Shown piece by piece: positions 10,997-28,386 of a stretch of DNA of 64,000 nucleotides. Position numbers and translations under genes: made by a program. Source of the DNA: an uncultured Bacteroidota bacterium (GTDB lineage: Bacteria > Bacteroidota > Bacteroidia > B-17B0 > Aurantibacillaceae). The notes beneath the pieces are model-generated. The model did no database searches, was not told the DNA's origin, and worked only from the letters and a program-made list of their open reading frames with translations. Each line of letters opens with the position of its first letter. Position 1 is the stretch's first letter. The stretch is from NCBI GenBank assembly GCA_903893815.1, contig CAITNS010000043.1, positions 186,001-250,000 on the forward strand. Reading direction: 5' to 3'.

Positions 10997-11001
10997 ATTA
11001 T

Positions 11002-11757
11002 CTATAATCTAATTTCTATTTGGTTTGATTTTAAAAATCTTTTTAATTCTGGTATGGCAATTTCTTTATAATGAAAAACACTTGCTGCTAAAGCCGCATC
11101 TGCTTTTCCATTTTCAAAAATTTCTTTAAAGTGTTGCATAGTGCCTGCTCCACCACTTGCTATTACTGGAACATTTACGGCTTCTGAAATTTGTTTGGTG
11201 ATATCTAATGCAAAGCCATCTTTTGTTCCATCATTATTCATCGACGTTAATAATATTTCTCCGGCACCTAAAGCAACAGCTTGTTTTGCCCAGTCAAGTG
11301 TTTTTAATTCTGTTTTTACTCTACCTCCGTTTAAGTATACATACCAGTCATTATCTTCAAATTTAGTATCGATAGCTAGCACCACACATTGACTTCCAAA
11401 TTGACTGGCTAAATCTTTTATTAATTGAGGATTTTTAACAGCAGAGGTATTAACAGAGATTTTATCTGCACCAGCATTTAATAAAGCAGACACGTCCTCA
11501 ATTGAGCTAATTCCACCACCAACCGTAAATGGAATATTGATATGCTTGGCAATGCGAGTTACTAATTCCGACAATGTTTTTCGTTTTTCGTTAGTGGCTG
11601 TGATGTCTAAAAACACTAATTCATCAGCGCCTTGTTTGGCATATTCGATAGCAAGTTCAACTGGATCTCCAGCATCTCTAATGTTTTCAAAGTTGATGCC
11701 CTTTACTGTCCTTCCGTCTTTGATGTCCAGGCATGGAATTATTCTTTTTGTAATCAT
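11002..11757 (-). CDS. hisF: Imidazole glycerol phosphate synthase cyclase subunit HisF
   Basis: The 251-residue (beta/alpha)8 barrel has [18 protein letters not shown] with catalytic Asp11, [23 protein letters not shown] (second catalytic Asp) and [12 protein letters not shown]. It uses ammonia from HisH to convert PRFAR into IGP and AICAR. It lies 30 bp after a four-helix-bundle gene that separates it from hisA, and 5 bp before hisIE. Confidence 0.97.
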
Positions 11758-11787
11758 TTCTTTGATTTAGGATTTGCGAATGACGAG

Positions 11788-12153
11788 TTACGATTTTTGA
11801 TTTGCATTATTTCGAGCAGTTTTTAATGAAGCAACTATGATCGAAAGAATTTCATTCGCTTCTTTATGAATAACTTCTAATTCATTTTTATGTTCAGGAA
11901 GTAACTCCATAAAAATCTCTAAGAAATACATGGTTTCATCACATTCCTCTTCAACAATTTTTAGTTTATTTATGAAGTCAGGTGTTGATTTTGCTCTAGA
12001 TACCGCTCTATAATTTGCACCCAAAGATGAACTACATCTACTTATTTGATTAACTAATGCAAAGTAAGGTTGCTTATTTGGTGTTTTTTCAATAAATTTT
12101 AATACAGTAATAGCAAATTGTTTTGTTCTTAGTTTCAAGTCTTGTGGTTTCAT
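11788..12153 (-). CDS. Four-helix-bundle protein of the 23S rRNA intervening-sequence (S23) family, first copy in his operon
   Basis: The 121-residue helical protein has the family core ISRCSSSLGANYRAVSRAKS followed by FINKLKIVEEECDETMYFLE, matching the RSA-S-GANYREA / K-x-x-x-E-x-x-E-T-x-Y-W pattern of S23/IVP-like proteins. Family function is unclear; related folds include the Avd proteins of diversity-generating retroelements and ORFs in 23S rRNA insertions. It sits between hisA and hisF with 29 and 30 bp gaps, whereas true his neighbours are 1-5 bp apart. Its neighbouring spacers contain TTCGTAA-type strings in opposite orientation. It is probably an inserted cassette co-transcribed with his. 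Confidence 0.85.
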   Translation of the reverse strand: MKPQDLKLRTKQFAITVLKFIEKTPNKQPYFALVNQISRCSSSLGANYRAVSRAKSTPDFINKLKIVEEECDETMYFLEIFMELLPEHKNELEVIHKEANEILSIIVASLKTARNNANQKS

Positions 12154-12182
12154 AGTTAGAAATTTAATTATAAATCTAAGTT

Positions 12183-12914
12183 CTAAATTCGTAAGTCTTC
12201 AATTGCACTTCGTAATACGTCCATCGTAATTCTACCTTCGTAAATAGCTTTTCCAACAATAGTTGCAGAACAACCTATATTTTTTAATTCAATTAAATCA
12301 CTTAATTGAGAGACGCCACCACTGGCTGTTAAATTTAGTTTAGGAAATTTTGCAATCATGTTTTTATATAAATCAATCGATGGGCCTTGTAATAATCCAT
12401 CTTTCGAAATATCTGTACAGAAAACATTTTCAATTCCTTCGTTCAAATTTTCTTCAATGAAATCATAGATTGAAACATTGGTTGTTTCTAACCAACCACT
12501 TACAGCTATTTTTTCGTCCTTAACATCTGCCCCTAAAAATATTTTTTTTGCGCCATATTTTTTAATCCAAGAAAAAAATAGCGGTTTATTTTTTACTGCC
12601 AAACTCCCAATGGTTGCTAAGTCAGCCCCGTAATTGAAAACTGTTTCTATATCATCCTGTGTTTTAATCCCTCCTCCAAAATCAATTGACAATTTTGTTT
12701 TACTGGCGATACTCTCTAACACTTTATAATTGACTACTTTTCCTAATTTAGCCCCATCTAAATCCACTAAATGTAGTCGAGTAATTCCAATACTTTCAAA
12801 CTCCAAAGCGACTTCTAAAGGATTTTCATTATAAATTGTTTTTTGCGCATAATCGCCTTGTGTTAATCGCACACATTTACCATCTATGATATCAATTGCC
12901 GGAATGATTTCCAT
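12183..12914 (-). CDS. hisA: ProFAR isomerase HisA
   Basis: The 243-residue (beta/alpha)8 barrel isomerises the ProFAR aminoaldose to PRFAR. Motifs: IPAIDIIDGKCVRLTQGDY (catalytic Asp8), IDFGGGI, ATIGSLA, FCTDISKDGLLQG (second Asp) and LTASGGVS. It lies 3 bp after hisH. A four-helix-bundle gene follows 29 bp downstream. Confidence 0.97.
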   Translation of the reverse strand: MEIIPAIDIIDGKCVRLTQGDYAQKTIYNENPLEVALEFESIGITRLHLVDLDGAKLGKVVNYKVLESIASKTKLSIDFGGGIKTQDDIETVFNYGADLATIGSLAVKNKPLFFSWIKKYGAKKIFLGADVKDEKIAVSGWLETTNVSIYDFIEENLNEGIENVFCTDISKDGLLQGPSIDLYKNMIAKFPKLNLTASGGVSQLSDLIELKNIGCSATIVGKAIYEGRITMDVLRSAIEDLRI

Positions 12915-12917
12915 GTC

Positions 12918-13499
12918 TTATATTTTGATAAAGTTTTCTAATAGTTTTTGTCCTGCATCGCTTGATTTTTCAGGGTGAAATTGAACACCATAAAAATTAT
13001 TTTTTTGAAGTGAAGTACTATATTTTATTCCATAGTCTGTTTTAGAAATAGTATGATTGCTTATTTCAGCATAATAACTATGAACTAAATACATATATTC
13101 GTTTTCTTTAATTCCTTCAAATAAATTAGTCTTTAAATCATAGATAGTGTTCCATCCTATTTGAGGGACCTTAATATCACCTGTGAATAATTTAATTTGA
13201 TTGTCAAATATTCCCAAACACTCTGTGTTTCCTTCTTCTGAGGATTTACATAGGAGTTGCATCCCCAAACAAATGCCCAATACTGGTTGTTTTAAATTCA
13301 CAATCACTTCATCTAATTTCTTTTCTTTGAGGTATTGCATTGCTGAACTAGCTTCACCCACGCCTGGAAAGATAATCTTATCGGATGATTTTAAAATGCT
13401 AATATCATCTGTAACGTTGGCATTAACGCCAATCCGCTCTAAAGCAAATAAAACAGATTGCACATTACCCGCATTATATTTTATGATGGATACTTTCAT
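12918..13499 (-). CDS. hisH: Imidazole glycerol phosphate synthase glutaminase subunit HisH
   Basis: The class I glutamine amidotransferase has 193 residues. The nucleophile is Cys77 in GICLGMQLL, the oxyanion region is PGVGEA, and the catalytic His-Glu pair is in VQFHPEKS near 175. It supplies ammonia to HisF. It starts 49 bp after the second four-helix-bundle gene and ends 3 bp before hisA. Confidence 0.97.
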   Translation of the reverse strand: MKVSIIKYNAGNVQSVLFALERIGVNANVTDDISILKSSDKIIFPGVGEASSAMQYLKEKKLDEVIVNLKQPVLGICLGMQLLCKSSEEGNTECLGIFDNQIKLFTGDIKVPQIGWNTIYDLKTNLFEGIKENEYMYLVHSYYAEISNHTISKTDYGIKYSTSLQKNNFYGVQFHPEKSSDAGQKLLENFIKI

Positions 13500-13506
13500 A
13501 GTAAGT

Positions 13507-13966
13507 ATAAGTTGTAAGTTTTAAGAAGAAAGGCTGGGTAAAGTAAATTTAAATTTTGTTTATAGATACTGATTTAGAATATCCATGAATTAAACGTCTA
13601 ACTTCATCTGCTAAATTCTCAAGTTCATTTGCTGTTTTTTCGTTTATGTATTCTAAATCTTTTGAAAGAAGAATATAATATTTTACTTCTTCTAATGAGC
13701 CTTCTGATATATTTAAAAAATTTAATTTATTTGGAGTAGTTTTCTTTTTATAGCCTTCAGCAATATTTGCAGCTATAGATACAGCAGCTCTTCTAACTTG
13801 ATTTGTTAAAGCGTACACTTCTTCTTTTGGATAATTTTTAGTCACTTTGTAAATTGACAGTGCCAATAAATGTGCTTTTTGCCAAACTATTAATCCTTTA
13901 AATGAGGTTGTCTTTTCCATTTTTAATTATATAAATTATTTTTTAAATATACGCCTTACAACTTAT
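13507..13966. repeat. 12-bp perfect inverted repeats bracketing the second four-helix-bundle gene
   Basis: ATAAGTTGTAAG at 13507-13518 and its exact complement CTTACAACTTAT at 13955-13966 enclose the gene at 13549-13920. Further CTTACAAC sequence follows at 13976-13983 and GTAAG at 13501. The whole interval is 460 bp. Confidence 0.8.
13549..13920 (-). CDS. Four-helix-bundle protein of the S23 family, second copy in his operon
   Basis: The 123-residue helical protein has the other common sub-type core: QVRRAAVSIAANIAEGYKKKT, then FLNISEGSLEEVKYYILLSKDL. It differs strongly from the copy at 11788-12153, so this is not a recent tandem duplication. It lies between hisB and hisH with gaps of 56 and 49 bp. 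The gaps carry the perfect 12-bp inverted repeat described at 13507-13966. Biochemical role is unknown; a link to histidine synthesis is not implied by the family. Confidence 0.87.
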   Translation of the reverse strand: MEKTTSFKGLIVWQKAHLLALSIYKVTKNYPKEEVYALTNQVRRAAVSIAANIAEGYKKKTTPNKLNFLNISEGSLEEVKYYILLSKDLEYINEKTANELENLADEVRRLIHGYSKSVSINKI

Positions 13967-13976
13967 TTCTTTCTCC

Positions 13977-15086
13977 TTACAACATACCCTTAGTACTTGG
14001 TAAACTCATATTATTTGCATCTCTTTTTACTGCTATTTTAATAGCTTTAGCAAAAGCTTTAAAAATCGATTCTATTTTATGGTGTTCATTTTGTCCTTCT
14101 ACTTTAATATTTAAATTACATTTAGATGCATCACTAAATGATTTAAAAAAGTGATAAAACATTTCTGTTGGCATATCTCCAATTTTTTCTCTTTTAAATT
14201 CTGCTTGCCATTCAATCCAATTTCTACCTCCAAAATCTAAGGCTACTTGAGCTAAACAATCATCCATTGGTAAGCAAAAACCGTATCGTTCAATACCTCT
14301 TTTATCTCCTAATGCTTTTGCAAAAGCTTCACCTAATGTAATAGCGGTATCCTCAATGGTGTGGTGTTCATCAATATGTAAATCTCCTTTTGCATTGATG
14401 GATAAATCGATGTTACCGTGTTTAGCAATTTGTTCTAACATGTGATCAAAAAAAGCAAGCCCTGTTTTAATTTCTGCTTTGCCGCTACCATCTATATTAA
14501 TTGCGATAGTAATATCTGTTTCTTTTGTAGTTCTAGTGTGTGTAATATTTCTTTCAGGGAGTTTAAGGTAATTATAAATTTCCTCCCACGTCTCCACTAT
14601 CTTGTCAATCTCATTTTCAAATCCTGTTTCTTTATCATAGTTTTTGATGAAGATGGATTTGCTTCCTAAATTCTTAGCTAAATTAACATCAGTTAATCTA
14701 TCGCCAATAACAAACGAATTTGCTAAATCATAGTCGCCATTTACATATTTGGTTAGCATACCCGTGTTTGGCTTACGCGTTGGTTGATTATCTTTTTCAA
14801 ATGTTCTATCGATACATTGGTCTTCAAATGTTATGCCTTCATTCGCTAAAGTATCAACCATTAAATTATGAACTGGCCAAAATGTATTTTCAGGAAACGA
14901 ATCAGTTCCTAAGCCGTCTTGGTTTGTTACCATTACTAATTCATAATCTAATTCTCGAACTATTTTTCCTAACCAAGTAATAACGCCAGGTAAAAATTTA
15001 AATTTCTCAAAACTATCAATTTGAAAATCGGTGGGTGGTTCCCAAATCAAGGTCCCATCTCTATCAATAAATAATACTTTTTGCAT
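13977..15086 (-). CDS. hisB: Bifunctional histidinol-phosphatase/imidazoleglycerol-phosphate dehydratase
   Basis: This is a 369-residue fusion. The N-terminal HAD phosphatase (about 1-165) starts [13 protein letters not shown] (nucleophile Asp, general acid Asp) with VTNQDGLG and [17 protein letters not shown]. The C-terminal dehydratase (about 180-369) has [33 protein letters not shown] and [19 protein letters not shown], which hold the manganese-binding His clusters. It catalyses steps 6 and 8. It starts 1 bp after hisC. Confidence 0.97.
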
Positions 15087-15087
15087 G

Positions 15088-16140
15088 TTACTTATATTGT
15101 TTTAATGTGTCTATTAACTGTTTGTTTTCTTTTTCTGTTCCAACGCTTATGCGAATTCTATTTTCACAATTTAATAAGCTGGAACGGTTGCTGATTAAAA
15201 TAGTTTTTTTTAATAGATAGTTACAAATATCACTCGCGTTAGATACTTCAATTAAAAAATAATTTGCATCGCTTTCAAGAATGTTTTTCACAAAGGGCAA
15301 TTGTTGCAATTCGTTTTCTAAAACTATTTTTTGTTTTAAAATGCTATCTACTAATGTATCTTTTATTGCGGATTTATTCAAGGCTTTTAATATCAATTCT
15401 TGAGAGTTGGAGTTAATATTAAAAGGCGGACGAACTTTATTTAGAATTTCAATAATGGAAGGATTCCCGTAAGCGACTCCAACACGTAAAGCTGCTAATC
15501 CCCATGCTTTTGAAAAGGTTTGTAAAACCAAAATATTTTCAAATTCAGTAATTAAAGATAGGGCAGAGGCTTTTTCAGAGAAATCAATATAAGCTTCATC
15601 AACCACAACAATACCATTAAAATTTAAAGCAATTGTTTTTAATTGCTCTATCGAGATACTAGTGCCTGTTGGATTATTTGGAGTGCAAATAAAAACGAGT
15701 TTCGTTCTTAAGTTCGTAGTTTTTAAAATGACGTGTTCATCAAACAAAAAGCTTTCTTTTTTTAATGGTGCATTTAAAACTTCTACATTATTTAATTGGG
15801 CATATACTTTAAACATCCCAAAAGTTGGTTCGCAAATCAAGATATTATCTTGCTTAGGTTCACAAAAGCAACGAATCAGTATATCAATTAATTCATCGCT
15901 ACCATTACCAATAGCCACTTGATTTAAGTTTACTTTTTTATATGTTGCAATTGCTTGTTTTACTTTGCTTTGAGAAGAACAAGGGTAACGCTCATAACCT
16001 AAACCTATTGGCGAACCAAAATTATTTTCACAGTTATCTAAAAAAACAGCTTCACTATTATCCAAATAATCATCTCTCCAAACTTTGTAAGATTGAAGCG
16101 ATTTTATATTTTCTCTTGTTATAGCATCTAAATTGAACAT
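15088..16140 (-). CDS. hisC: Histidinol-phosphate aminotransferase
   Basis: The PLP-dependent fold-type I aminotransferase has 350 residues. Motifs: [36 protein letters not shown], and [16 protein letters not shown], which contains the Schiff-base Lys. It converts imidazole acetol-phosphate and glutamate to histidinol-phosphate. It follows hisD by 3 bp. Confidence 0.96.
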
Positions 16141-27617: not shown

Positions 27618-27651
27618 ATATAATTTAAAATCTAACATTTAGCATTTATAA

Positions 27652-28386
27652 TTACTTAGAAGGTTCATTTAACATATCCAAAAACGCGATTTGTGTTTCT
27701 TCCATGCGATGAGCTAGTTTGTCAATTCGTGCATTTAACCAATGGTAAAATACGAAAGCTAAAACCCCTACTACTAAACCTCCACAAGAGGTAATCATCT
27801 TTTGGTATAAACCCGAAGAGATAACTTCAATTTCTACTGTTTTAGCAACAGATATATCATAGAAAATTTTAATAACCCCAATAATAGTTCCAATGAAACC
27901 AAACATAGGAGCAATACGACCTGTAATATTTAAAATACTCATATTTTTTTCTAATCGATTTAATTCAGAAGAACCCGCTTTATCCATGGCTTCTCTTATC
28001 TCTTGCATGCTTTGTCCAATACGAGAAATACCTTGCTCTAACATAATAGCCTCAGGTGTATTGACGCTTTTACACATATTACGAGCATTCGCTAAGTTAC
28101 CGCTGTTAATCATATCTTTCACGCTTGCTAATAAGGTGGCATTTTTCTTCGATGCTTTTGAAATTGTTAAAAAACGCTCAACCATGACATAAAGAGACAT
28201 TAGTAATAAAATGGCTAGGGGAATCATAATAACACCACCTTTGGCTACCATTTCAAATAATGATATTTCGTTTGGAGGAAGTTCGGTAGCGGTTTGTATG
28301 CCTGTTACAGCTGGTTGAATTGCCGCAGCTGTATCTGCAATTGCTCCTGCAACTGTAGGTGTTATTTGAAGAATGAATGACATCAT
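27652..28386 (-). CDS. exbB: MotA/TolQ/ExbB proton channel family protein
   Basis: The 244-residue protein has three membrane helices: about 48-68 (GGVIMIPLAILLLMSLYVMVER), about 150-172 (TGRIAPMFGFIGTIIGVIKIF) and about 195-215. The central segment with GRIAPMFGFIGTIIG matches the conserved ExbB/TolQ channel region. It energises the TonB-like transducer encoded downstream. It is the first gene of the exbB-exbD-tonB-folC run. Confidence 0.93.
   Translation of the reverse strand: MMSFILQITPTVAGAIADTAAAIQPAVTGIQTATELPPNEISLFEMVAKGGVIMIPLAILLLMSLYVMVERFLTISKASKKNATLLASVKDMINSGNLANARNMCKSVNTPEAIMLEQGISRIGQSMQEIREAMDKAGSSELNRLEKNMSILNITGRIAPMFGFIGTIIGVIKIFYDISVAKTVEIEVISSGLYQKMITSCGGLVVGVLAFVFYHWLNARIDKLAHRMEETQIAFLDMLNEPSK

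Follow-up and report, generated by a model that had tools for sequence, protein, structure and literature searches.

Inverted arrays of a degenerate AG heptad around IVP-family four-helix-bundle genes at operon junctions: a candidate minimal mobile cassette

The element described here was found in a 64,000-nucleotide stretch of DNA (hereafter, the window; positions 186,001 to 250,000 of contig CAITNS010000043.1, assembly GCA_903893815.1) from an uncultured Bacteroidota bacterium of the Aurantibacillaceae, in which two genes encoding four-helix-bundle proteins of the 23S rRNA IVP family (PF05635) are located in a minus-strand histidine operon with the order hisB, four-helix copy 2, hisH, hisA, four-helix copy 1, hisF. 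With a probability of roughly 0.55, such genes and their flanks represent a minimal mobile DNA cassette, composed of one IVP gene between inverted arms that are built from a degenerate AG heptad; we read this cassette as related to rRNA intervening-sequence elements. The gene and its arms insert as one unit where the stop codon of one gene meets the start codon of a co-oriented neighbour; most insertions are in the sense orientation, and the stop and start codons of the host genes either survive the insertion or are provided by the cassette.

Copy 2 (13549..13920, minus strand, 123 aa) lies within a perfect 12-bp inverted repeat, ATAAGTTGTAAG at 13507-13518 and CTTACAACTTAT at 13955-13966, the coordinates of which were verified. 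The original prediction, which was based on this pair, had also reported additional repeat sequence beyond the right arm, and this was found as CTTACAAC at 13976-13983, offset by 21 nt (3 x 7) from the first CTTACAAC. The 12-mer occurs three times in the whole 3.69-Mb draft genome, two of these occurrences being the window pair, so the objection that it is a common spacer phrase fails. By length alone, the 12-bp pair is unremarkable in AT-rich DNA: the 4 kb around copy 2 also contain perfect inverted repeats of 13 and 14 bp, and the window contains no more occurrences of the 12-mer with at most two mismatches than chance predicts (14 seen vs. 14.3 expected). What lifts the pair above chance is the joint test of all ten PF05635 genes that the genome contains. 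The upstream arm of copy 2 in the direction of transcription (13955..13998, minus strand) comprises the perfect 12-mer at 13955-13966 and an outer GTTGTAAG word, the two GTTGTAAG words being spaced by 21 nt; it crosses the hisB stop codon, and the extended alignment covers 13969-13998. The downstream arm (13503..13532, minus strand) reads, as its reverse complement, TAAGTTG-TAAGTTT-TAAGAAG, with AG at 7-nt steps.

The arm score of each gene was defined by local alignment of inverted matches between its upstream and downstream flanks, and a score of at least 14 was regarded as strong. Long RNAduplex pairing of whole flanks, in which the own pair was the best in its row for 2 of 10 loci, was too noisy, and local alignment was therefore used instead. 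At the ten host loci, the own pairs scored 13.7 on average vs. 8.4 for cross-pairs, and the own sum was reached in 0 of 100,000 permutations; every host locus has its own arm sequence, and the scores of L003 and L004 were low (7.5), that of L004 being 12.5 with wider flanks. In a control of 464 kb of the host genome, 135 middle genes of co-oriented triples had a mean score of 9.2, and six of them scored at least 14, one being the window four-helix gene. The other top scorers were other small genes, which we assign, by sequence, to the GxxExxY and GIY-YIG types.

Strong arm pairs were also found in excess in each of the larger sets. Across the own genome and its relatives, 60 of 104 loci scored at least 14 vs. 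1.6% of cross-pairs (35 of 60 for non-redundant sites, 0.85 expected); these 104 loci were obtained from 118 by dropping 10 clipped loci, one unparsed locus with an internal stop (L034), and three with open reading frames (ORFs) of at least 180 aa. A set from named genomes (80 loci from one scan, of which 77 were usable and three were unparsed) gave 41 of 77 loci where about 2 were expected, consisting of 18/39 in Bacteroidota (1.5 expected) and 23/38 in other phyla (0.5 expected), including Planctomycetota, Acidobacteria, candidate phyla, and one archaeal metagenome-assembled genome (MAG). A hold-out with one locus from each of 40 additional genomes, analyzed with the same threshold, gave 19 of 40 strong loci vs. 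0.97 expected (0 of 20,000 permutations). A PF05635 gene is present in 34 of 72,556 plasmid records, from which seven loci were examined first and 12 further regions were then found via three of these; 6 of the 7 loci, all on cyanobacterial plasmids, scored at least 18. What the 12-mer shows locally is a small part of an element type that is widespread. PF05635 matches within longer ORFs of 220, 406, and 225 aa (L099, L105, and L109, respectively, all from genome G032) stand outside all counts.

Because the protein family is known from an intervening sequence (IVS) of 23S rRNA that is excised by RNase III, pairing at the RNA level was expected: the arms would pair in the transcript, RNase III would cut the stem, and the segment would leave the operon mRNA, the repeat being kept for its pairing. 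This explanation, which we consider unlikely but of real weight, is consistent with the complementary borders of the RNase III-cut rRNA elements that encode the same protein family (PMC4990558) and with the sense orientation within operons. It also agrees with predicted folds, in which own flanks pair more than swapped flanks (mean 28.6 vs. 16.8 pairs) and at least 10 flank pairs are predicted at 45 of 60 loci, compared with 36 of 60 with swapped flanks. However, RNA tolerates G-U but not A-C, so under selection for pairing, G-U-compatible mismatches should be in excess, which was not the case: 61 G-U-compatible mismatches were counted vs. 72 of the A-C type, and the larger set gave 65 vs. 91, 79 vs. 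103, and 152 vs. 173. Close alleles, moreover, carry uncompensated changes and unequal heptad numbers per arm (L354/L356/L358, L349/L362). With no G-U preference and, if anything, the reverse, nothing indicates selection for RNA pairing, which favours maintenance of the ends at the DNA level, or a match between the arms that stems from descent and exchange; the absence of a G-U bias is compatible with a transcript that is still cut.

Read from either end towards the gene, the arms are degenerate 7-nt arrays in which each heptad contains one AG. In 72 arms, the identity at lags of 7, 14, and 21 nt was 0.565, 0.541, and 0.551, respectively, vs. 0.33 in shuffled arms (0.58-0.67 at lag 7 in a larger non-redundant set), and the upstream arms contained 22% G and 6% C, this bias being reversed downstream. 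An unsupervised heptad fit to 77 non-redundant loci with arms, 74 of which were long enough, yielded one phase, with A at 0.78 and G at 0.72 in the upstream arm and A at 0.69 and G at 0.78 in the reverse complement of the downstream arm; the total information was 1.8 vs. 0.5 after shuffling, and the profile was alike in both arms. Among the hold-out loci, 36 of 73 AG dinucleotides had the next AG exactly 7 nt on, vs. 8% in shuffled sequences. Gene-less heptad arrays are present at gene junctions at positions 27619-27653 of the window and at L129:7722-7756, the latter between genes that we take to resemble parA and parB.

Tandem 7-nt units at intergenic positions, which the arms resemble, are known from the short tandemly repeated repetitive sequences (STRR) of cyanobacteria, which include Nostoc units such as TTGTCAG (PMC2408588), from the GGGAATC heptamers of Xanthomonas, which form convergent inverted pairs (70 in Xcc and 75 in Xac; PMC4692102), and from TAACTGA in Beggiatoaceae. 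Unlike the present arms, these repeats are linked neither to PF05635 nor to cassette insertion in the available passages of PMC4692102, PMC4679880, and PMC2408588. The TTGTCAG unit of Nostoc fits the AG-heptad pattern. The arms might be slippage-prone, STRR-like heptamer repeats that invade junctions alone, with the four-helix gene as a passenger, as heptamer arrays without the gene occur in Xanthomonas, Nostoc, and Beggiatoaceae (PMC4692102, PMC4679880) and also in the own genome. We regard this as doubtful: array density next to four-helix genes is ~23-fold that in the remainder of the same loci (1.82 vs. 0.078 per kb), the arrays form inverted pairs whose partners match each other, and at the Nostocales plasmid sites examined, the arrays were found only with the gene or, in one case (L360, described below), gene-less at the same insertion point.

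Empty-site homologues were looked for and exist both in operons of the genus and in Nostocales plasmids. At the hisB-hisH junction, the gene is present in one of nine loci of the genus; the inserted interval of the window extends over 477 nt from the hisB stop to the hisH start (13500..13976, minus strand), and in L200, whose HisH is 96% identical, the junction is empty and the two genes overlap as TAATG. The hisA-hisF junction is filled in L199 and L200, the two genes abut or overlap in L201, L202, L205, L206, and L207, and two further loci were out of reach. The nuoJ-nuoK junction is filled in 4 of 19 loci, another locus being cut before the junction, and in the filled loci NuoJ terminates earlier, with its stop codon provided by the cassette; the sufC-sufD junction is filled in 5 of 20 loci. 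A decayed remnant of a four-helix gene lies between sufC and sufD in L320 (G012).

Two Nostocales plasmids of one strain carry the same genes, A-B-C (A 93%, B 91%, and the first 600 nt of C 98% identical), with the cassette at B|C in one and at A|B in the other, so that each plasmid is the empty site of the other. Across Nostocales plasmids, the A|B junction is filled in three and empty in four, B|C is filled in one and empty in six, an integrase junction is filled in two and empty in three, and a TraM junction is filled in two and empty in one. In the Nostoc plasmid pNsp_c (L360), heptad arms occupy the same TraM-side point but enclose no four-helix ORF; this is a deleted, gene-less derivative that would merit the term miniature inverted-repeat transposable element (MITE). 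The search for target-site duplications had a mixed outcome: direct repeats of 6-7 bp surround the insert at A|B (plasmid site S2) and of 3 bp that at S1, ATG stands on both sides of the B|C insert, and base-level comparison of empty and filled alleles revealed no clear duplication elsewhere, with none evident at the his sites, including the window site, or at the integrase site.

All ten host genes are flanked by co-oriented genes. Both neighbours were co-oriented at 54 of 60 non-redundant sites of the relatives, 63 of 74 named loci, and 33 of 40 hold-out loci (one without a neighbour), compared with 176 of 349 background genes, and both were opposite at 1/60, 1/74, and 3/40, respectively, vs. 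29/349 in the background; given this strong bias, the gene seems to depend on host transcription. From inspection of the translations, we take the host sites to be his (twice, Pfam-checked), nuoJ-nuoK, nuoL-nuoM, bat, and miaB with a sigma-54 regulator, and the remaining ones to be an efflux-pump operon, homogentisate dioxygenase, a sugar aminotransferase, and one that is unassigned.

Within groups of loci that occupy the same site, own arm pairs exceed inter-orthologue pairs (0 of 20,000 permutations). The two arms of a locus change in concert; the excess is due to groups with greater divergence, and the arms of close orthologues are shared. At different sites, arm similarity was 20.8 for 37 pairs with at least 60% protein identity vs. 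15.0 overall, and proteins that are 63-65% identical and have common GGCACAAAG-type arms were found in MAGs assigned to Deltaproteobacteria, Planctomycetota, and Verrucomicrobia, of which some may be misassigned. By these sequence comparisons, the arms partly travel with their protein. Copying of the arms from the end of the target gene was also considered, host nt -15 to -3 being weakly like the downstream arm (mean z 0.65, p 9e-5, n = 91), and was dropped because related cassettes at different sites have alike arms and the arms enter the ends of host genes. Collinearity of the arms beyond the common heptads (39/52) is a biased figure, because the segments were selected by that same alignment.

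The four-helix genes might instead be domesticated operon genes with a host job, vertically inherited together with a structured mRNA spacer. Several species of the genus, and some outside it, do have certain sites in common, with 11 loci at a single junction (taken, by inspection, to be miaB and a sigma-54 regulator), and close orthologues retain the same arms; this explanation is nevertheless very improbable in view of the patchy occupancy within one genus (hisB-hisH 1/9, nuoJ-nuoK 4/19, and sufC-sufD 5/20 with the remnant), the reciprocal empty sites on sister plasmids, and the finding that MAGs from three phyla carry related proteins whose arms resemble each other. An unrelated transposase acting on a MITE family whose 12-bp terminal repeat is constant would account for the small size, the inverted ends, and the absence of a transposase from the unit, but this explanation is refuted as stated, since no other pair of this 12-mer exists in the genome and the ends of the remaining nine copies differ from it. 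Of the MITE-like cassette originally proposed, the inverted ends, the four-helix content, and the lack of a recognised transposase stood, whereas the fixed terminal sequence did not, and the cassette further differs from MITEs in the intact gene inside.

The copy 2 protein matches PF05635 with 133 bits and TIGR02436 with 123.7 bits (curated cut-offs, 33.8 and 24, respectively), and the copy 1 protein exceeds the same cut-offs with 52 and 75 bits; a solved relative of copy 2 is PDB 2gsc (E 4e-15). A bAvd-like match (PF22296, 43.9 bits) relates the fold to that of Avd, the accessory protein of diversity-generating retroelements (DGRs), whereas the score with the Avd model itself (NF033474, 38.2 bits) is far under its cut-off of 80. 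The PF05635 protein is the only ORF listed inside the copy 2 unit, which contains no RAYT tyrosine transposase gene. The family is present in 39 of 41 genomes of relatives and in 232 of 296 sampled Bacteroidota genomes, often with several genes each, and the closest named matches in the scan belong to Bacteroidota; none of 50,697 phage records carried a PF05635 gene. Three four-helix genes and one GxxExxY gene lie within ~5.5 kb at G033:C2:45151-50602, possibly as nested cassettes.

For the mobile cassette favoured here, we propose that the protein, a relative of which in Xanthomonas is a homopentamer (PMC4990558), would bind the AG-heptad strand at both ends and bring the ends together, that AG-rich microhomology at gene ends or stop codons may guide the insertion, that host replication or repair enzymes would complete the joining, and that the host operon would transcribe the cassette. 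Several points weigh against it. A strong arm pair is absent in 44/104, 36/77, and 21/40 loci of the three sets (about half), the 464 kb of the own genome contain six heptad arrays without a four-helix gene, none of which adjoins one, a clear target-site duplication is seen at just one of the sites examined, and the Mantel correlation between arms and proteins is weak (r 0.086, 16/2000 permutations). Furthermore, we know of no transposase, nuclease, or joining activity in the PF05635 family and of no catalytic fold in the four-helix protein, which is linked to the heptads by association alone.

The 23S rRNA IVS that encodes S23p/IVP is about 430 nt long, has complementary borders, is excised by RNase III, is patchily distributed, and has been called selfish (PMC4990558). 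The cassette shares with it the protein family and the complementary borders, and differs from the rRNA copies, as known from their descriptions, in its location between protein genes of operons (both window copies lie outside rRNA genes), its inverted AG-heptad ends, and the lack of a G-U preference. REPIN/RAYT systems likewise consist of inverted pairs beside one small gene and of many gene-less pairs (PMC3116915), whereas RAYT is a tyrosine transposase tied to its repeat class, and here the ends vary by locus. IVP genes have been noted in cas loci (PMC3936711, PMC10910872), near DGRs (PMC10053308), and in rRNA insertions of the candidate phyla radiation (CPR) (PMC11270868), and in the part of PMC5524665 that was available, four-helix genes are merely listed in a phage-region table. 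No paper joining PF05635, S23, or four-helix genes with inverted heptad repeats was found in a literature search whose coverage largely left out subscription journals and preprints.

As PF05635 is without an agreed function, a unit with mapped ends makes the question one of binding and mobility. The cassette might also serve as a vehicle for heptamer repeats; the spread of these was suggested while no mechanism of horizontal transmission was evident, according to the available passages of PMC4679880. A note of caution follows for gene-neighbourhood surveys, as IVP genes in cas loci may be insertions; on two cyanobacterial plasmids (L352 and L353), a four-helix gene lies between cas6 and cas4, with heptad arms in L352 and none found in L353. 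More tentatively, and at somewhat less than even odds, there may be a very widespread, so far unrecognised class of mobile elements, each encoding a four-helix protein that forms rings, has no nuclease activity, recognises strands with the AG heptad, and carries its gene, flanked by the inverted heptad arrays, into gene junctions. Many orphan heptamer repeats of bacteria would also derive from such a class, and the IVP genes in rRNA genes, in CRISPR-cas operons, and near DGRs would be explained as insertions and not as partners in function.

Copy 1 (11788..12153, minus strand, 121 aa) occupies an inserted interval of 425 nt from the hisA stop to the hisF start (11758..12182, minus strand), as determined by comparison with empty loci. 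Only a weak match had been described around it; local alignment yielded an imperfect 34-nt arm pair with a score of 11.5, composed of an upstream arm that extends into the 3′ end of hisA (12182..12215, minus strand) and a downstream arm (11767..11800, minus strand), and copy 1 is still the weaker of the two copies. The host genes, all on the minus strand, are hisF (11002..11757; His_biosynth, 286 bits), hisA (12183..12914; His_biosynth, 242 bits), hisH (12918..13499; GATase, 74 bits), and the bifunctional hisB (13977..15086; IGPD, 215 bits). Rfam gave no match in window positions 11000-15100 or in 20 family loci.

The GxxExxY and GIY-YIG loci appear, from their sequences, to be other cassette types. 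For each, 30 loci were fetched, of which 25 and 22, respectively, were used; both neighbours were co-oriented at 21/25 GxxExxY and 10/22 GIY-YIG loci, the arm score was at least 14 at 9/25 and 10/22, and a 7-nt period was looked for in the GxxExxY arms and not found. In the own genome, GxxExxY-type (PF13366) genes at L131:9246-9647 and L138:16756-17169 lie between inverted words of the CACATAG type and others, and a GIY-YIG type gene at L125:11995-12363 has TGTCA-CTGAGCGGAGTCGAAG inverted ends. Gene-less sequence like these TGTCA-CTGAGCGGAGTCGAAG GIY-YIG ends is present at the hisB-hisH junctions of relatives (L204 and L205), and a single genome, G031, has 19 GxxExxY (PF13366) matches.
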